Position numbers and translations under genes: made by a program. From NCBI GenBank assembly GCA_937937315.1, contig CALDCK010000115.1:1-35485 (forward strand): a DNA stretch of 35,485 nt, in the 5' to 3' direction. Of the stretch, positions 2,629 through 31,476 are shown piece by piece (position 1 is the stretch's first letter; the number at the start of each line of letters is the position of its first letter). Origin of the DNA: an uncultured bacterium. GTDB lineage: Bacteria; Myxococcota_A; UBA9160; SMWR01. Under the pieces are notes generated by a model. It saw only the letters and a program-made list of their open reading frames with translations, ran no database searches and was not told the origin of the DNA.

Positions 2629-3411
2629 ATGGCCACGGAGACACAGCGCGCGCGATGGGAGCGCGACGGGTTCTTCCTGGTGCGGGGCTTCGCGGAACCC
2701 GACGTGAGCTCGGCCATGCTGGATCGGGTGGTCGAGGTCAGCCGCAGCGCGGCGGGATCGATCGTCCACGACGGCCACTTCGTGATGCCGGAGCAGAACC
2801 TGGCCGATCGCGTCGACGAATCCGCCGGGGCGGAGCTGCGCGTCTCGAAGATCTTCCGACTGCACCGCGACCCGGTCTTCCGCGCATTCATCGAGTCGGA
2901 GGCGGTGCTCGAGATCGGCCGCGCCCTCCTGGGGCCCCGCCTCGACTGCTTCCTCTCCCAGTTCATCTTCAAGAATCCCGGCGCCTGGGGACAGCCCTGG
3001 CACCAGGACGCCCACTACTTTCCCTTCGACCGGAGCCCCCAGGTCGGCCTGTGGCTCGCCGTCACCGAGGCGACCCCCGAGAACGGCTGCCTCTGGGTCC
3101 TTCCGGGCTCCCACACCGAGCCGGTGCACGAGCACGTCCCGGATCGCCGACCCAACGCCAACGTCGGTTACACCGAGATCGTCGACCACGACTTCGACGA
3201 CGAGGTGGCCGTGACGATGGCGCCGGGCGACCTGCTCGTGTTCCACAGCCATCTCATGCACCGCTCCCGGGACAACGAGTCGACGAGGCTGCGGGCAGCG
3301 ATGGTCTACCACCTTGCCGAGCACGGCACGATCGACCGGAGCGAGACCGCGAGCCCGGTGAACGACTGGCTGTGCCTGCCGGATCCCTCCGGCGCCAGGG
3401 AGTCCGGCTAG
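2629..3411 (+). CDS. Phytanoyl-CoA dioxygenase (PhyH) family protein
   Basis: This is a 260-residue Fe(II)/2-oxoglutarate-dependent oxygenase of the PhyH family. The iron-binding facial triad is visible: H125 and D127 in PWHQDAHYF, and distal H211 in FHSHLMHRS, with R220 as the likely 2-oxoglutarate contact. Members hydroxylate acyl-CoAs or small lipophilic compounds. The ATG at 2629 is preferred over an in-frame GTG at 2581 because GAGGAA lies 7 nt upstream and the protein then begins at the usual family position. The stop TAG shares the bases CTAG (3408-3411) with the stop of the convergent GST gene, leaving no room for a terminator between them. The substrate is unknown. Confidence 0.88.
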   Translation: MATETQRARWERDGFFLVRGFAEPDVSSAMLDRVVEVSRSAAGSIVHDGHFVMPEQNLADRVDESAGAELRVSKIFRLHRDPVFRAFIESEAVLEIGRALLGPRLDCFLSQFIFKNPGAWGQPWHQDAHYFPFDRSPQVGLWLAVTEATPENGCLWVLPGSHTEPVHEHVPDRRPNANVGYTEIVDHDFDDEVAVTMAPGDLLVFHSHLMHRSRDNESTRLRAAMVYHLAEHGTIDRSETASPVNDWLCLPDPSGARESG

Positions 3412-4208
3412 CCGCGGGTGAGGGGCTCCACCTCCGCCCAGACGGCCTCGCCCTGCTGGCGGAACAGCTCCAGCACCGGCGCCGCGAGCCAGGCCGAGAC
3501 GGCGACCTCGTAGGCGGGACGGGCCTTCACCCGCGCGAGCCAATCGGCCACGCGCGGTCGCGCCGACTCCGTGAGGAGTGGCTCCATGGCCAGGTGCTCG
3601 AGACGAAGCACGTAGGGGAGCGCCGACGCATCGGCGAGTCCGAAGCCCGCGCCCGAGAGCCAGCCACCGGGCGAGAGCGCCGCCTCCATGTCGTCGAGCA
3701 GTGCGACGAAACGGCCGATCGCCCCGGCGAACTCCGGCGCCTGCACACCGTGCTCGATCACGTTGCGACGCGCCTGGCGCCGCGCCGGATCCGGGATGGC
3801 CGCGAGGTTCGCCTCGCGCACCGCCTCGGGCTGCTGGAGCAGCATCGCCCGGGGTCCGATCGCGAAGGTGATGACGCCGGCGGCGGGATGCACCTTCTCG
3901 TCGATGCGCTTCACCCAGAGTCGCATCGCGTGTCGGTCTGCGGCATTCGCGGGTGCGAGGGGCGGCTCCGGGAAGGCCTCCTCCAGGTACTCGTCGATCA
4001 GGGACGACTCGATCAGCACACGCCCATCGTGGATCAGGGTCGGTACCACGTGGTTCGGATTGAGCTTCACGTAGTCTGGCGCGTGCTGCCCGCCACCGAT
4101 CAGATCCACCTCGTGGGAGGCGAAGTCGAGGCGTTTCTCGGCGAGGACCAGCCGCACCTTCTGGGAGCAGCTCGAGAAGGGATTGTGATAGAGCTCGAGG
4201 CCGGTCAT
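3408..4208 (-). CDS. Glutathione S-transferase family protein
   Basis: This 266-residue protein opens with a thioredoxin-like GST N-domain: LELYHNPFSSCSQKVR with S12/S13/C14 at the catalytic position, then HVVPTLIHDG and ESSLIDEYLEE, which are the cis-proline and glutathione gamma-Glu binding segments. An all-helical C-domain follows from about residue 95. The ATG at 4208 has GAAGGAA 8-9 nt upstream; the frame is open further upstream but that stretch is antisense-like sequence. It is the last gene of a leftward TetR - MDR remnant - GST operon, 28 bp after the MDR remnant stop, so it is probably controlled by that TetR. The likely role is glutathione conjugation or isomerisation in a degradation pathway; the substrate is unknown. 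Confidence 0.9.
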   Translation of the reverse strand: MTGLELYHNPFSSCSQKVRLVLAEKRLDFASHEVDLIGGGQHAPDYVKLNPNHVVPTLIHDGRVLIESSLIDEYLEEAFPEPPLAPANAADRHAMRLWVKRIDEKVHPAAGVITFAIGPRAMLLQQPEAVREANLAAIPDPARRQARRNVIEHGVQAPEFAGAIGRFVALLDDMEAALSPGGWLSGAGFGLADASALPYVLRLEHLAMEPLLTESARPRVADWLARVKARPAYEVAVSAWLAAPVLELFRQQGEAVWAEVEPLTRG

Positions 4209-4236
4209 GGATGTCGTTCCTTCCGGGGAGGGAGGC

Positions 4237-4518
4237 TCACAGCTCGAGGAGCTGCTTGCCGAAGTTCTCCCCATTGTAGAGGCGCACGAGCGTCTTCGGC
4301 GCGTTCTCGAAGCCGCACTGGACGTCCACGTCCCAGACCAGGCTCCCGTCGTCGACCCAGCCGCGCATGGCGGGCTCGAAGGCGAGCCAGCGCGCACGCA
4401 CGAGGGCCTGGGCCTCCTGGGGCTCGGGGACGGGCGTCTTACGCAGCTCGAAGCAGCCCTCCTCCACCCGGGCCTCCGGGCGTCGCACCAGCACCCACTG
4501 TCGATTCGACGCGCTCAT
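4237..4518 (-). CDS. Internally deleted MDR/curcumin-reductase-like protein (93 aa)
   Basis: Residues 1-60 match the N-terminus of zinc-independent NADP-dependent MDR oxidoreductases (CurA type): RQWVLVRRPEAR, then LAFEPAMRGWVDD. Residues 62-93 match the extreme C-terminus of the same family: GFENAPKTLVRLYNGENFGK. The family is usually about 335-345 residues, so roughly 245 residues, including the whole NADPH-binding Rossmann fold, are missing, yet the reading frame is intact. The apparent junction is near 4315-4340. The start overlaps the TetR stop as ATGA (4515-4518), implying translational coupling. It cannot be an active reductase. It may be a recent in-frame deletion still translated as part of the operon, a repurposed small protein, or an assembly error. 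The full-length ancestor would have reduced enone-type substrates next to the GST and hydratase genes. Confidence 0.8.
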   Translation of the reverse strand: MSASNRQWVLVRRPEARVEEGCFELRKTPVPEPQEAQALVRARWLAFEPAMRGWVDDGSLVWDVDVQCGFENAPKTLVRLYNGENFGKQLLEL

Positions 4519-5174
4519 TCCCCGCTCCCTCCCAGGCTCGGTTCGTCCTGGGCATCCGCGGGCCCGAGGAGCAGAGCCACGACGAAGCGGGCGTGCTCCT
4601 CGACGACCCGGGGATCGAAGGGATCGACCCCCGAGACCCGTTTGCACTCCTCCGCCTGATGGAAGATCAGGCCGGTGGCGCCGGCCAGGACGTAGAAGAA
4701 GTGCACCGGTGCGACGTCCATCGTCAGCAGCCGGCTCCCGCGCTCGAGCAGGGCCGTGATCGCCTCGTAGAGGGGCTTCACGTGGCGGTCCACGATCCAG
4801 CGCATGCGCGGACCCCGGCGCTTGCCCTCTTCGTGCATGAGGCGGACGAACTCGGGCCGTCGCGCCACGAAGTGGACGTGAGCGTGGATGATCCGGGCCG
4901 CGCGCTCGCGATCGCTCCCGATGGACGGATCCGCGAGGATCGCCTCGACGCCCGCTCCCAACCCACCGAAGGCGCGATCCACGGCGGCCTGCCAGAGCTT
5001 GAGCTTGGTGCCGAAGTAGTAGGGGATGAGGCCGTGGTTCACGCCCACCCGCGTCGCGATCTCCCGGGTCGAGGCCCCGTCGTACCCCTTCTCCGTGAAT
5101 GCCTGGAGGGCGGCCCGCAGGATCTGCTCGCGCGTCTCCCCCGAACCCGAAGCCGCCGCTGCTGCCCTGACCAT
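4515..5174 (-). CDS. TetR/AcrR family transcriptional regulator
   Basis: This 219-residue regulator has a TetR N-terminal helix-turn-helix at about residues 14-60 (TREQILRAALQAF, ASTREIATRVGVNHGLIPYYFGTKLKLW) and an all-helical ligand-binding domain. It heads the leftward operon with the MDR remnant and GST, whose translation is coupled through an ATGA overlap. It is divergent from the enoyl-CoA hydratase at 5286. Its promoter region (5199-5235) contains a pair of 16-bp dyads 25 bp upstream of its ATG, so autoregulation is likely. The same dyad pair occurs near 29.9 kb, which suggests that it also controls the SDR/FAD monooxygenase pair there. The ligand is probably an acyl-CoA or a pathway substrate, but nothing in the sequence identifies it. 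Confidence 0.92.
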   Translation of the reverse strand: MVRAAAAASGSGETREQILRAALQAFTEKGYDGASTREIATRVGVNHGLIPYYFGTKLKLWQAAVDRAFGGLGAGVEAILADPSIGSDRERAARIIHAHVHFVARRPEFVRLMHEEGKRRGPRMRWIVDRHVKPLYEAITALLERGSRLLTMDVAPVHFFYVLAGATGLIFHQAEECKRVSGVDPFDPRVVEEHARFVVALLLGPADAQDEPSLGGSGE

Positions 5175-5198: not shown

Positions 5199-5235
5199 TT
5201 ATTCGACCGTACAACATCATTGTCCAACTGTATAG
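5199..5235. promoter_or_regulatory. Paired 16-bp dyad operator, locus 1 (TetR / enoyl-CoA hydratase)
   Basis: Two imperfect palindromes, TTATTCGACCGTACAA (5199-5214) and TTGTCCAACTGTATAG (5220-5235), are separated by 5 bp, giving a centre-to-centre distance of 21 bp, two helical turns. Each fits TTRTNC-N4-GNAYAA, with one mismatch at the last base of the second. A leftward promoter for the TetR gene overlaps: TGGACA (5226-5221), 17 bp, AATAAA (5203-5198). The same layout recurs at 29879-29915 with 23 of 37 bases identical. Paired dyads at helical spacing beside a TetR gene are typical of TetR-family operators; assignment to this TetR is inference. Confidence 0.72.
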
Positions 5236-5285: not shown

Positions 5286-6083
5286 ATGAGCGACCCCGTC
5301 CTGCTGGAGGAGACCCGAGAGGGCGTCCGCTTCCTGCGCCTGAACCGACCGGAGCGGAAGAACGCCCTCAACAACGAGCTCGGCTGGGCGATCGTGGCGG
5401 CCTTCGAGCGCGCGGCGCACGACGACACGGTTCGCGTCGTCGGCGTGACCGGCCAGGGCGACGCGTTCTGCTCCGGTGCCGATCTCGGACGGGACGAGCC
5501 CTACACCCCGCTCTCGTCGGGCGACGCCGCGGTGGACGACCTGGGCTGGGTGGGACGCTTCCCCCTCGTGATCCGACTCCGCTGCGACAAGCCCGTGGTC
5601 GCGGGCGTGAACGGAGTCGCCGTCGGCGCCGGTCTGGCCCTGGCCCTGTGCGCCGACGTGAGGATTGCCAGCTCCGCAGCGCGTTTCCACCCGGGCTATG
5701 CGCGCGCGGGAACGTCCCCCGACGGCGGCCTGTCCTGGACGCTCCCCCAGGTTCTCGGCCACGAGGGCGCCATGCGATTCCTGCTCGAGCAGGAGATGAT
5801 CGACGCCCCGACCGCACTGGCCCTGGGAATGGTCGGCGAGATCGCCGAGGCATCGGAGTTTCAGGAGCGGTTTCGCGTCTATTGCGAGCGCCTCGCGGAG
5901 GTCGCGCCGATCGCCGCGCGCCAGACGAAGCGGTTGGTGACCCGGGTCGGACTGCCGCCGGATCTCGAGGCCCATCTACGCGAGGAGATGGCCTACGTCT
6001 ACCGTGGGCTCTCGAGCGAGGACGGCCGCGAGGCGGTGAGGGCGATCCTGGAGAAGCGGAAGCCCGAGTTCCGGGGCCGCTGA
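5286..6083 (+). CDS. Enoyl-CoA hydratase/isomerase (crotonase) family protein
   Basis: This 265-residue crotonase begins MSDPVLLEETREGVRFLRLN. The two oxyanion-hole segments are present: GQGDAFCSGADL (about residues 56-67) and NGVAVGAGLALALCADVRIA (about 109-128). The position of the second crotonase glutamate holds Asp146 in SPDGG, as is common in enoyl-CoA isomerases and in many uncharacterised hydratases, so the exact reaction (hydration, isomerisation or other acyl-CoA chemistry) is open. It acts in the cytoplasm on acyl-CoA thioesters. It is divergent from the TetR operon and downstream of the paired dyad operator, so control by that TetR is likely. The reading frame is open for 3 kb upstream only because GC-rich antisense sequence lacks stops; the ATG at 5286 is the sensible start. 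Confidence 0.9.
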   Translation: MSDPVLLEETREGVRFLRLNRPERKNALNNELGWAIVAAFERAAHDDTVRVVGVTGQGDAFCSGADLGRDEPYTPLSSGDAAVDDLGWVGRFPLVIRLRCDKPVVAGVNGVAVGAGLALALCADVRIASSAARFHPGYARAGTSPDGGLSWTLPQVLGHEGAMRFLLEQEMIDAPTALALGMVGEIAEASEFQERFRVYCERLAEVAPIAARQTKRLVTRVGLPPDLEAHLREEMAYVYRGLSSEDGREAVRAILEKRKPEFRGR

Positions 6084-20384: not shown

Positions 20385-22223
20385 ATGGCGAACTCGGCGG
20401 ATACAGGCCCGGACGCCCCGAAGGCGACCGAGGATACGGCGGGGCTCGGCTTCGACCCGACGGCACTGCGACAGAAGTACCGGGAAGAGCGCGAGCGGCG
20501 CCTGCGCTCGGACGGGAACGAGCAGTACATCGAGGTCAAGGACGAGTTTGCCCACTTCCTCGATGACCCCTACGCCGAGCCCGGCTTCGAGCGCGCACCC
20601 CTGACCGACGAAGTCGAGGCCCTGATCATCGGCGGCGGCTTCGGTGGGCTCCTGGCCGGCGCCCGGCTGCGCCAGGCCGGCGTCGAAGACATCCGCATCG
20701 TCGATCCGGCGTCCGACTTCGGCGGCACCTGGTACTGGAACCGCTACCCGGGCATCGCCTGCGACGTCGAGTCCTACACCTATCTGCCGCTGCTCGAAGA
20801 GGTGGGCTACGTGCCCAAGGAGAAGTACTCCTTCGGCCGCGAAATCCTCGAGCACAGCCAGGCCATTGCCCGGAAGTACGACCTCTACCGGGACGTCTGC
20901 TTCCAGACCCGCGTGGAAGAGCTCCGCTGGGACGAGGACGAGGCCCGCTGGATCGTCACGACGAACCGGAACGACCGCATGAAGGCCCACTACCTGTGCC
21001 TCGCGACGGGCCCGCTCAACCGCCCGAAACTGCCGGGCATCCCCGGGATCGAGGACTTCGAGGGTCACACCTTCCACGCCAGCCGCTGGGACTACCGCTA
21101 CACCGGCGGTGACTCCGAGGGAAACCTCACCGGGCTCCAGGGCAAGCGCGTCGGCATCATCGGCACCGGAGCGACCTCCGTGCAGTGCGTCCCCCACGTG
21201 GGCGAGTGGGCCGAGCAGCTCTACGTCTTCCAGCGCACGCCTTCTTCGATCGACGTGAAGAAGAACCCCCCCACGGATCCCGAGTGGGCGAAGTCCCTGA
21301 AGCCGGGCTGGCACCAGCACCGCATGGACAACTTCAACGCCCTGGTCTCCGGGGTTCCCCAGGCCGAGGACCTCGTCGACGACGGCTGGACCGATCTGAT
21401 CGGCAAGCTCCTGGTGAGCATGCGGCAGGGAGCGACCTCGGATCTCTCTCCCGAAGGGATCGCGCGGGCCGTCGAGCTCGCGGATTTCGAGAAGATGGAG
21501 GAGATCCGGGCTCGGGTGGACTCCATCGTCAAGGACCCCGAGACCGCAGAGGCGCTCAAGCCCTACTACCGTCAGTTCTGCAAGCGTCCCTGCTTCCACA
21601 ACGAGTACCTGGAAGCCTTCAACCGCCCGAACGTCACCCTGGTCGACACGAAGGGCCGGGGCGTGGACCGGATCACGAAGAAGGGCGTCGTCGTCGACGG
21701 CCACGAGTACGAGGTGGACTGCCTGATCTACGCCAGCGGCTTCGAGGTGGGCACCGACTACTCGCGCCGTGCCGGCCTCCAGCTCTACGGGCGCGGTGGC
21801 CAGAGCCTGACGGAGAGGTGGGCGGACGGCGTTCGCTCGCTCCACGGCATGCACGTCCACGGCTTCCCGAACTGCTTCATCATGAGCAATCCCCAGGCGG
21901 GCTTCACGGCGAACTATCCCCACCTGCTCGACGAGCAGGCGAAGCACCTCGCCTACATCATCCAGACCGGGATCGAAAAGGGGCTGCGCAGGGTCGAGGT
22001 CACCGAGGAGGGCGAGGCCGCGTGGGTCGAGCAGTGTCTGTCCAAGGCTCAGCTCGGCACCGACTTCCTCGAGAACTGCACCCCGGGCTACTACAACAAC
22101 GAGGGCAAGACCTCGGAGCGCTCCGCCCAGGACGGCTTCTACGGCGGTGGCTCCATCGAGTTCTTCCAGATCCTCGAGGACTGGCGCAAGAAGGGCGAGC
22201 TCGAGAGAATGGACCTCTCCTAG
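20385..22223 (+). CDS. Type I Baeyer-Villiger monooxygenase (long N-terminal form)
   Basis: This 612-residue flavoprotein has an extra segment of about 80 residues before the FAD motif GGGFGG (83-88), as in the cyclopentadecanone/steroid monooxygenase-like group. DFGGTWYWNRYPGIACDVES is the conserved flavin-side stretch, and the fingerprint FEGHTFHASRWD is at residues 225-236. The NADPH motif GTGATSVQ follows. The class converts ketones, often cyclic or long-chain, to esters or lactones. ATG 20385 has GAGGAGAA 5 nt upstream. A TetR gene begins 4 nt after the stop, so the two are an operon, probably induced by the substrate through the dyad at 20336-20352. Confidence 0.93.
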   Translation: MANSADTGPDAPKATEDTAGLGFDPTALRQKYREERERRLRSDGNEQYIEVKDEFAHFLDDPYAEPGFERAPLTDEVEALIIGGGFGGLLAGARLRQAGVEDIRIVDPASDFGGTWYWNRYPGIACDVESYTYLPLLEEVGYVPKEKYSFGREILEHSQAIARKYDLYRDVCFQTRVEELRWDEDEARWIVTTNRNDRMKAHYLCLATGPLNRPKLPGIPGIEDFEGHTFHASRWDYRYTGGDSEGNLTGLQGKRVGIIGTGATSVQCVPHVGEWAEQLYVFQRTPSSIDVKKNPPTDPEWAKSLKPGWHQHRMDNFNALVSGVPQAEDLVDDGWTDLIGKLLVSMRQGATSDLSPEGIARAVELADFEKMEEIRARVDSIVKDPETAEALKPYYRQFCKRPCFHNEYLEAFNRPNVTLVDTKGRGVDRITKKGVVVDGHEYEVDCLIYASGFEVGTDYSRRAGLQLYGRGGQSLTERWADGVRSLHGMHVHGFPNCFIMSNPQAGFTANYPHLLDEQAKHLAYIIQTGIEKGLRRVEVTEEGEAAWVEQCLSKAQLGTDFLENCTPGYYNNEGKTSERSAQDGFYGGGSIEFFQILEDWRKKGELERMDLS

Positions 22224-29017: not shown

Positions 29018-29842
29018 TCAGGACGACGCGGCGTCCTCGGCAGGGCCTCCCTGCGCCAATCCCCGAACGAGTCGGTCGATGACGAACTGCGGGGCCAGTC
29101 TCTTCAGCAGGGTGAGCGGCTTTGCCTTGTCCATCGGAACCCGGAGCGGCTTGCGGTCGAGGGTGATCACCTGGGCCACGCGCTTCGCAACCATCTCCGG
29201 GGTCAATCGGCTTGCGGCGGTGTCCCGGGCCATTCGCGCCACCATTTTATGGCTCGGAGAGCCCGCCTCGGCTCGCGTTACGACGTGGAGGTGGGCTCCC
29301 GTCGCCGGTCGGTCGATTGCCATGGCCACCGGCTGCATGATGACGACGTCGATCCCGTCGGACGCGACCTCGTGGTAGAGCGCCTCACTCAGGGCCTCGA
29401 GAGCGAACTTCGCCGACGTGTAGGCACTCATGTAGGGAACGGCCAGCAGGCCCCCGAGCGAGCTCATGTTGACGATCGTGCCCCCCCCCTGCCTCCGCAT
29501 CACCGGGATCACCTGCTGACAGATCTCGATCACCCCGAAGACGTTGGTCTCATAGAGGGCCCTTACCTCGTCGACGGTCTGCTCCTCGAAGGCGCCGATG
29601 ATCATCGCGTTCACACAGTTGACCAGGACGTCGATGCGCCCCTCTCGCGCGACGACATCGCGAACACAGGCCTCGACGGAGCCCGGCTCGGTCACGTCCA
29701 TCCGGAGCATCTCGAAGGGGTGCTCACCCCCTCGGTCCGGGAGCTGGCGCGAGGTTCCGTAGACGGTCATTCCCTGCCCGGCGAGGGTGTCACCCAGCAC
29801 GCTTCCGAAGCCGCCCGAGGCACCGGTGACCAGAACGATCAT
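29018..29842 (-). CDS. Short-chain dehydrogenase/reductase (SDR)
   Basis: This 274-residue classical SDR has a cofactor motif TGASGGFG directly after the N-terminus, D in RMDVTE for the adenine, NCVNAM in the NNAG position, and catalytic S and YxxxK in VNMSSLG...YTSAKFA. The long C-terminal region (about residues 190-274) resembles SDRs acting on bulky lipid or retinoid-like substrates. ATG 29842 has GGAGG 7 nt upstream. It is divergent from the FAD monooxygenase across a 95-bp region with a TetR-like operator pair and a strong sigma70-like promoter, so the two genes should be induced together. Confidence 0.9.
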   Translation of the reverse strand: MIVLVTGASGGFGSVLGDTLAGQGMTVYGTSRQLPDRGGEHPFEMLRMDVTEPGSVEACVRDVVAREGRIDVLVNCVNAMIIGAFEEQTVDEVRALYETNVFGVIEICQQVIPVMRRQGGGTIVNMSSLGGLLAVPYMSAYTSAKFALEALSEALYHEVASDGIDVVIMQPVAMAIDRPATGAHLHVVTRAEAGSPSHKMVARMARDTAASRLTPEMVAKRVAQVITLDRKPLRVPMDKAKPLTLLKRLAPQFVIDRLVRGLAQGGPAEDAASS

Positions 29843-29877: not shown

Positions 29878-29906
29878 ATTATACGGTTGAATAACCCGCT
29901 TGTCCA
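29878..29906 (-). promoter_or_regulatory. Leftward promoter of the SDR gene
   Basis: On the minus strand, TGGACA (29906-29901), 17 bp and TATAAT (29883-29878) form a near-consensus sigma70-type promoter. The expected transcript start is near 29871, giving a leader of about 30 nt with the GGAGG site. It overlaps the opposed promoter for the FAD monooxygenase and both operator dyads. Confidence 0.65.
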
Positions 29907-29915
29907 CGCGTATAA
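29879..29915. promoter_or_regulatory. Paired 16-bp dyad operator, locus 2 (SDR / FAD monooxygenase)
   Basis: TTATACGGTTGAATAA (29879-29894) and TTGTCCACGCGTATAA (29900-29915) are imperfect palindromes with the half-site TTRTNC, separated by 5 bp. The length of each site, the gap and the order are identical to the pair at 5199-5235, and 23 of 37 bases match. The outer arms ATTATACG/CGTATAAT (29878-29885 and 29909-29916) also form an exact 8-bp inverted repeat. The regulator may be the TetR at 4515-5174; that is inference. Confidence 0.72.
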
Positions 29916-29916
29916 T
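29887..29916 (+). promoter_or_regulatory. Rightward promoter of the FAD monooxygenase gene
   Basis: TTGAAT (29887-29892), an 18-bp spacer and TATAAT (29911-29916) form a good sigma70-type promoter. The start would fall near 29923, leaving a short leader that contains GGGAGG, 7 nt before the ATG at 29938. It overlaps both dyads, so one bound regulator could block both directions. Confidence 0.6.
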
Positions 29917-29937: not shown

Positions 29938-31476
29938 ATGAAGTCGATGGGCGAGTTCGATGTTGCGATCGTCGGATACGGTCCCGTCGGGGCGTGCTGC
30001 GCACTCCAGCTCGCGGATGCTGGCCTGCGCGTCCTCGTCCTCGAGAGGTCGGCCGAGCTCGTCGAGCTTCCGCGGGCGATCGGCCTCGACGGCGAGTCCA
30101 TGCGCGGGTTCCAGCGCCTCGGACTCTCGAAGGCCGTCGATGGCATCCTCCAGCCGCGGCGCGAAAAGGACGAGTTCTGCTTCACCGACTCGAAGCGCAA
30201 CCGGCTCTTCGGCATCGAGCTGCCGGCGTCGGGGCCCAACGGCTGGCGAGACATCGCCTTCTTCGACCAGCCCGAGCTCGAGGCGCTGCTGCGCCGCGAG
30301 GTCGCGCGGAGCGATCGCATCGCAGTCGCGCTCGGCGTCGAGGTGACGGCGATCGAGTCGTCCCGGACCGAGGTGGCGCTTCGCGGGATCGCGGCGGAGG
30401 GAGAGGTCCAGGCGGCGGCCGAGTATGTCATCGGCTGCGACGGGGCCTCGAGCTTCGTCCGACGATCGATCGGGGCCGACTGGAAGAGCCTCGGCTACGA
30501 CCAGGACTGGCTCGTGATCGACATCGCGCTCCACCCCGGCGCCCTGCTGCCCGAGACGATGATGCAGGTCTGCGACCCGGCGCGCCTCACCACCTACGTC
30601 CCGTGCCGGGATCCGTATCGCCGCTGGGAGTTCCAGCTCGCCGAAGGAGACACCCGCGATCGAATGGAGCGCCCCGAGGAGATCGAGGCCCTGCTCGACT
30701 CGTGGCTGCCGCGCAGTGACTACGACATCCGGCGCGCGGCGGTCTATCAGTTCCATGCAGCGACCGCCTCCGAATGGCGGTCCGGTCGGGTCATGCTCGC
30801 GGGCGACGCGGCCCACCAGACACCGCCCTTCCTGGGCCAGGGTCTCAACTCGGGCCTGCGCGATGCGGTCTGCCTCGGCTGGAAGCTCCCTCTCGTGCTC
30901 TCGGGGGAGTGCGACGACAGTCTGCTCGACAGCTATCAGGAAGAGCGGGGCGCCCACTCCGTCGACCTCGTCGACCGCGCCGTCGGAATCGGACAGCTCA
31001 TGGAGACCCTGGCCGCGCGGGAGGCTGGACTACCCGATCCCTACGCGAGCGCCGCCGAGCGCGCGGCACCGTCGGACGGTCAGCTCGTTCCGATGCTTCG
31101 CGGCGGCACCCTCGTCGCAGAGCAGATCAAGGCGGGATCCGCCGTGGGTCGCCTGCTCTACCAGCCGACCGTGCGAACGGACGGCGGAAGCCCGGTCCGT
31201 CTCGACGAGCATCTGGGAAGGCACTTCGCGATCTTGGCGCGCACCAGAGCGGATCTGCAGCTGTCCGACGAGGCGCGCAGGCAGCTCGAGCGGCTCGGCG
31301 GCCGCGTCGTCTCCCTCGACGAGCTCGAGGTCGTCGAGGGCCGGTACGACCCGCTCTTCGAGCATCACCCGGCCGCCGTCGTCCGCCCGGATCGCTACGT
31401 CTTCGGCGTCGTGGATTCGGACCACGATCTCGAGGGGCTGATGCGCGAGCTCGCGAATCGCCTCCATCTTCGGTAG
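29938..31476 (+). CDS. FAD-dependent monooxygenase, PHBH/MhpA type (group A)
   Basis: This 512-residue flavoprotein hydroxylase has the GxGxxG motif GYGPVG (residues 13-18), the DG motif in IGCDGASSFVRRSIG, and the GD motif in MLAGDAAHQTPPFLGQGLNSGLRDA. These three define group A aromatic hydroxylases. The C-terminal thioredoxin-like domain (about residues 400-512) is like that of MhpA and related enzymes. It hydroxylates a phenolic or polycyclic substrate with NAD(P)H and O2; the substrate is not known. The ATG at 29938 has GGGAGG 7 nt upstream, and is preferred over TTG 29887, which lies inside the operator. It is divergent from an SDR under shared control. Confidence 0.92.
   Translation: MKSMGEFDVAIVGYGPVGACCALQLADAGLRVLVLERSAELVELPRAIGLDGESMRGFQRLGLSKAVDGILQPRREKDEFCFTDSKRNRLFGIELPASGPNGWRDIAFFDQPELEALLRREVARSDRIAVALGVEVTAIESSRTEVALRGIAAEGEVQAAAEYVIGCDGASSFVRRSIGADWKSLGYDQDWLVIDIALHPGALLPETMMQVCDPARLTTYVPCRDPYRRWEFQLAEGDTRDRMERPEEIEALLDSWLPRSDYDIRRAAVYQFHAATASEWRSGRVMLAGDAAHQTPPFLGQGLNSGLRDAVCLGWKLPLVLSGECDDSLLDSYQEERGAHSVDLVDRAVGIGQLMETLAAREAGLPDPYASAAERAAPSDGQLVPMLRGGTLVAEQIKAGSAVGRLLYQPTVRTDGGSPVRLDEHLGRHFAILARTRADLQLSDEARRQLERLGGRVVSLDELEVVEGRYDPLFEHHPAAVVRPDRYVFGVVDSDHDLEGLMRELANRLHLR

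Follow-up and report, generated by a model that had tools for sequence, protein, structure and literature searches.

In the TetR repressor of Tn10, Arg28 forms hydrogen bonds with G2 of the operator and Gln38 with A3. Contacts of both residues with operator bases have been described (PMC7102968). QacR and CprB place two dimers on one site of 22–32 bp, which the CprB dimers approach from opposite sides (PMC4150764), and RolR is one of several TetR-type regulators of aromatic catabolism (PMC3086911). PheR (PMC13273656) was considered as a further comparable regulator but dropped, as it belongs to the IclR family. In the open literature that we searched, no description of the TetR regulon treated here was found. 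According to our analysis of a 35,485-nt contig of an uncultured member of Myxococcota (the whole of this stretch is called the window below), one TetR-type repressor very probably controls its own gene together with two divergent oxidoreductase genes at another locus 25 kb away. At the level of sequence, this arrangement is repeated among members of an uncultivated Myxococcota order.

Geometry and Rarity of the Paired Dyads

Two predicted operators occupy intergenic regions of the window. The first (5199–5235, no strand assigned) reads TTATTCGACCGTACAA-CATCA-TTGTCCAACTGTATAG, with dyads at 5199–5214 and 5220–5235, and precedes the TetR start by approximately 25 bp and that of an enoyl-CoA hydratase/isomerase (ECH) gene by 50 bp. 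The second (29879–29915) reads TTATACGGTTGAATAA-CCCGC-TTGTCCACGCGTATAA, with dyads at 29879–29894 and 29900–29915, and is located between the starts of a short-chain dehydrogenase/reductase (SDR) gene (36 bp) and a monooxygenase gene (22 bp). Each module consists of two 16-bp inverted repeats with a 5-bp gap, the dyad starts being 21 bp apart, and 23 of the 37 bases are identical between the two. The original prediction had reported this shared module, and its coordinates, gap, step and identity were all recovered. Its description of the eight half-sites as close fits to TTRTNC proved equally accurate: seven match exactly, the remaining one has an initial C, and all eight agree in T, T, and C at bases 2, 4, and 6.

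The genome (4.26 Mb, 84.5% complete) was searched with the pattern TTRTNCN4GNAYAA-N5-TTRTNCN4GNAYAA at up to three mismatches, the reversed pattern serving as control. The two modules are the only matches in the whole genome, so that the paired dyad is not spread over many unrelated promoters; the control pattern gave no match in the 4.26 Mb, and none of 100 dinucleotide shuffles of the window contained one at this threshold. Single dyads are near background, with 38 matches versus 31 for the control at one mismatch and 186 versus 175 at two, and in some relatives exact single dyads are no more frequent than the control pattern. Searches with one dyad are therefore unspecific, and the signal resides in the pairing, the exact dyads, their position, and the gene context. 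A third, looser pair was observed elsewhere in the genome (G000:C136:11370-11407; L003:6371-6408). It reads TTAAACGATCGTATAA-N6-TTATACAGTCGATTAA, has a 22-bp step, and lies divergently between a set of FAH, VOC, and monooxygenase genes and a gene for a 258-aa protein, which is followed by an acyl-CoA dehydrogenase gene. This pair is probably another target of the same TetR regulator family; its His/Gln class (see below) is uncertain.

The TetR Gene and Its Neighbors

The regulator (219 aa; 4515–5174, minus strand) was assigned to the TetR family by its domains, by alignment, and by its position in a tree. It contains TetR_N (PF00440; 49.1 bits, cut-off 24) and the ligand-binding C-terminal domain TetR_C_29 (34 bits, cut-off 26.2), and its recognition helix reads N46-H47-G48-L49-I50. 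Among the NCBIfam equivalogs compared (RefZ, FasR, BetI, KstR, FadR, PsrA, and others), the best score, 50.8 bits, fell far short of the cut-off (180). The predicted operator at its own promoter is palindromic and is kept in relatives.

Two further genes follow in the same transcription unit. The first encodes a curcumin-reductase-like MDR oxidoreductase (4237–4518, minus strand) that overlaps the TetR stop and is internally deleted: its first 57 and last 36 residues are joined in frame, leaving an apparent gap of about 238 residues relative to four relatives, for which a real deletion and an assembly fault are alike possible. The third gene of the unit encodes a glutathione S-transferase (GST)-like protein (gene model 3408–4208, minus strand; Pfam assignment on the longer ORF 3408–4397). 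Its inclusion in the regulon, as originally predicted, is only partly supported, because TetR-MDR-GST operons do recur in relatives, yet most of their GSTs are only 31–40% identical to that of the window. The divergent ECH gene (5286–6083, plus strand) fared worse. It had been placed under control of TetR, but none of the 25 matches to it in relatives is accompanied by a convincing dyad or by TetR, and we consequently rejected it as a regulon member.

The SDR/Monooxygenase Locus

The SDR (274 aa; 29018–29842, minus strand) is encoded divergently from an FAD monooxygenase of 512 aa (29938–31476, plus strand). The latter had been labeled PHBH-type. It is better described as MhpA-like than as PHBH itself, since it exceeds the cut-off of NCBIfam NF004829 (477 bits, cut-off 390); it stays below the cut-offs of the equivalog models NF004831, NF004828, NF004827, and NF004830. 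Two sigma-70 promoters are predicted from consensus matches between the genes, one toward SDR (29878–29906, minus strand; TGGACA, 17 bp, TATAAT; 11/12) and one toward the monooxygenase (29887–29916, plus strand; TTGAAT, 18 bp, TATAAT; 10/12). Both sit back to back on the operator half-sites of 29879–29915, and promoter elements coincide with half-sites likewise in several relatives. A promoter scan gave no match in the module at 5199. The window also encodes a PtlE-like Baeyer-Villiger monooxygenase (20385–22223, plus strand) without a dyad in front; a protein 84% identical to it is encoded directly after TetR and monooxygenase in one relative (G045).

Conservation in Relatives

Proteins were searched in 60 relatives, most of them from the same order, and named genomes were scanned in addition. 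The TetR relatives reach 73% identity, the closest being found in metagenome assemblies of Myxococcota/Deltaproteobacteria. Those of 62–73% identity have the same dyads at their own promoter, and according to upstream scans most relatives of 45–73% identity have a dyad, often paired, just before the TetR start. Over the fetched loci the dyad-pair step was 21 bp 20 times, 22 bp five times, 23 bp three times, and 20 bp twice, with any other step occurring at most three times; this peak marks the exact spacing as a family trait. When the promoter stretch was used as a DNA query, no relative was recovered directly, as is explained by divergence of the DNA in which the dyads alone persist.

In four relatives, TetR is encoded directly beside SDR and/or monooxygenase orthologs with one common paired-dyad intergenic region. 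The two dyads separate SDR on one side from TetR, monooxygenase, and a Baeyer-Villiger monooxygenase on the other in G045 (L073), and SDR from TetR and monooxygenase in G046 (L075) and in a named genome (L098). In G032 (L077) they lie between TetR and a divergent monooxygenase-SDR unit, and in G042 (L072) dyads precede TetR and SDR, in this order. The second window locus looks like the layout of the relatives minus TetR, which lies 25 kb away and has an operator copy of its own; the direction of this change can only be inferred from the comparison. A TetR-less layout like that of the window also exists in G026, where the intergenic region has one degenerate dyad (score 10.0). In G004, near-identical dyads (TTATACRATTGGATAA) precede each of TetR, SDR, a VOC-monooxygenase operon, and an operon with a GST-like gene.

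A matrix trained exclusively on TetR promoters of the relatives, with the window and all SDR and monooxygenase sites left out, gave the four window dyads the four highest scores of the 35 kb (26.8, 24.8, 19.9, and 17.6; the fifth match scored 6.3). It also scored highly at SDR promoters away from TetR (26.8 in G056, 26.4 in G004, 25.9 in G050, and 22.3 in G025) and found no dyad at the SDR promoters of G019, G052, and G037, three of the 12 relatives with SDR. All 12 SDR carriers among the 60 relatives also encode TetR (P = 9e-8) and all 12 the monooxygenase, while TetR is present in 16 of the 18 monooxygenase carriers (P = 4e-9); neither P value is corrected for relatedness. The intergenic regions of relatives conserve the dyads at TetR, SDR, and monooxygenase promoters, and the link from TetR to SDR and monooxygenase that the original prediction had drawn is supported by the putatively autoregulatory dyads, the joint loci, the matrix ranks, and the co-occurrence.

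Operator Specificity and Residue 47

The TetR relatives were classed by the two residues before the Gly-Leu of the recognition helix as NH (the window protein), NQ, NL, or PL. Half-sites of the NH class, with His47, have C or A at base 5, which differs from T in 27 of 30 halves; in the NQ class, with Gln47, this base is T in 36 of 42. The NH type appears in at least three places of the tree, namely the window clade, L026 of G004 inside an NL clade, and a Pseudomonadota clade, and TTATCC half-sites occur with L026 and near three NH-type TetRs of Pseudomonadota, not always at the TetR start. These distant His-class proteins (L124, L126, and L127), with TTATCC-type dyads nearby, are encoded beside genes for proteins of 457–784 aa. 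In our own alignment, residue 47 corresponds without gaps to Gln38 of Tn10 TetR and the invariant Arg37 to Arg28. The base contacts of this pair should fall at base 5, which varies, and at C6, which is invariant.

We tentatively propose, at somewhat less than even odds, that in this TetR subfamily, which spans an uncultivated order of Myxococcota and has outlying members among Pseudomonadota, the choice of His or Gln at position 47 may act as a specificity switch for half-site base 5. Paralogs in one cell would then recognize different sets of paired operators that are alike in all other respects. In the His class, the half-sites would at the same time serve two overlapping divergent promoters as -35 and -10 elements, and the 21-bp spacing would thereby be fixed. 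Because TGGACA and TATAAT overlie the NH-class dyads, promoter selection could explain part of the base preference; the TTATCC half-sites near the outlying NH proteins argue against its being the whole explanation. A Gln-class paralog in the same genome, 55% identical to the window TetR, has a single matching dyad (TTATTCGATCGAATAG; G000:C283:3485-3500, L004) at its own promoter and adjoins a gene for a predicted metal-dependent hydrolase.

Alternative Explanations

If paralogous TetRs (those on C283, C13, and C366) shared one operator class, the SDR/monooxygenase module might be bound wholly or partly by a paralog, for example with one dyad each. The C283 protein with the dyad at its own promoter speaks for this, as does the better fit of dyad 1 of each module, taken alone, to the Gln-class matrix (by 5.6 and 1.8 bits), so that the C283 paralog could share the dyad 1 sites. 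Both modules as a whole, however, favor the NH class by 4.3 and 6.7 bits, whereas the C283 site disfavors it by 13; the second dyad of each begins with TTGTCC, a half-site recurrent at promoters of His-class TetRs, and in relatives it is the His-class TetR itself that adjoins SDR and/or monooxygenase. The window TetR is moreover the only His-class member among its four closest homologs found in its own genome, which at 84.5% completeness could be missing a further one. We consider binding by a paralog unlikely.

The similarity could also arise without any shared regulator if both modules were simply divergent sigma-70 promoters whose -35 and -10 elements form the dyads. The two strong promoter matches exactly on the half-sites of 29879–29915, repeated in several relatives, fit this idea, but it would have to accommodate that just two modules occur in 4.26 Mb, that C6 is nearly invariant (0.98) though located just outside the -10 hexamer, that the scan gave no promoter match in the 5199 module, and that other TetR classes retain dyads without one (L010, L016, and L048). 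It is accordingly given very little weight. Even less probable, to the point of being negligible, is a recent duplication or chance resemblance within one genome without conserved function: the modest identity of 23/37 would suit chance, but the flanks of the two modules show no visible similarity and several families of the order have the same dyads at orthologous promoters, those of TetR and SDR among them. The reading in which both modules serve the TetR at 4515–5174 as operators, through which it would block SDR and monooxygenase as well as tetR itself, is thus preferred as the whole explanation, with a probability of roughly 0.8, and binding of this TetR to both modules appears highly likely.

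Proposed Mode of Control

The operator unit would be the 16-bp inverted repeat TTRTNCR-NN-YGNAYAA, present twice per module with a 21-bp step. As 21 bp correspond to two helical turns, two TetR dimers should sit side by side, possibly cooperatively, on one and the same DNA face. At 29879–29915 the dyads fall on the -35 and -10 elements of the two predicted sigma-70 promoters that lie back to back there. Binding should therefore block both, and SDR and monooxygenase would be turned off together. At 5199–5235, TetR would repress tetR along with the MDR remnant and the GST behind it. Release of TetR might be triggered by a ligand, probably a substrate or intermediate of the pathway.

The original prediction had united hydratase, GST, SDR, and monooxygenase in one pathway. 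SDR and monooxygenase keep their place in this picture and GST does so in part, while the hydratase drops out; that the remaining enzymes serve a common pathway is still something we infer. Further enzymes encoded in the TetR operons of relatives are FAH-family hydrolases, extradiol-dioxygenase-like VOC proteins, curcumin-reductase-like MDR proteins, and GSTs, and these enzyme families suggest the oxidation of aromatic or other ring compounds. The MhpA-like hydroxylase, the SDR, and the curcumin-reductase-like MDR, together with the extradiol-dioxygenase-like VOC and FAH-family hydrolase seen in relatives and on C136, point to oxidative ring-compound breakdown, for which a pathway of the ring hydroxylation and cleavage type is plausible. 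Whether all of them form a single aromatic-type pathway is, on this genomic evidence, an even call.

Comparison with Known Regulators

For an uncultivated Myxococcota group, the analysis provides a concrete, testable regulon consisting of a regulator, an operator with exact geometry, and likely targets that are scattered over separate loci and recognizable through their common module. Since TetR autorepressors with scattered targets are already known, the predicted regulon would be a further example of ordinary bacterial control. The features worth testing are the non-overlapping 21-bp paired operator on two promoters and the relation between residue 47 and base 5; the paralogous TetRs, whose operators are nearly identical and whose recognition residue covaries with them, would allow a compact natural test of how paralogs keep their regulons apart.

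The proposed system shares with Tn10 TetR/tetO the TetR-fold helix-turn-helix and the match of His47, aligned with Gln38, to the varying half-site position and of Arg37, aligned with Arg28, to the invariant C/G. In contrast to tetO, the half-sites are one base pair further apart, the geometry is a 21-bp tandem, and the likely targets are oxidative enzymes instead of efflux. As with QacR and CprB, two dimers are expected per operator region. Those proteins, however, share one site of 22–32 bp, whereas here a total of 37 bp is taken up by two separate, non-overlapping 16-bp dyads whose starts are 21 bp apart, and the dimers are predicted to lie next to each other on one face. With RolR the likeness is one of analogy: both would be repressors of the TetR type that act on the oxidation of aromatic compounds.
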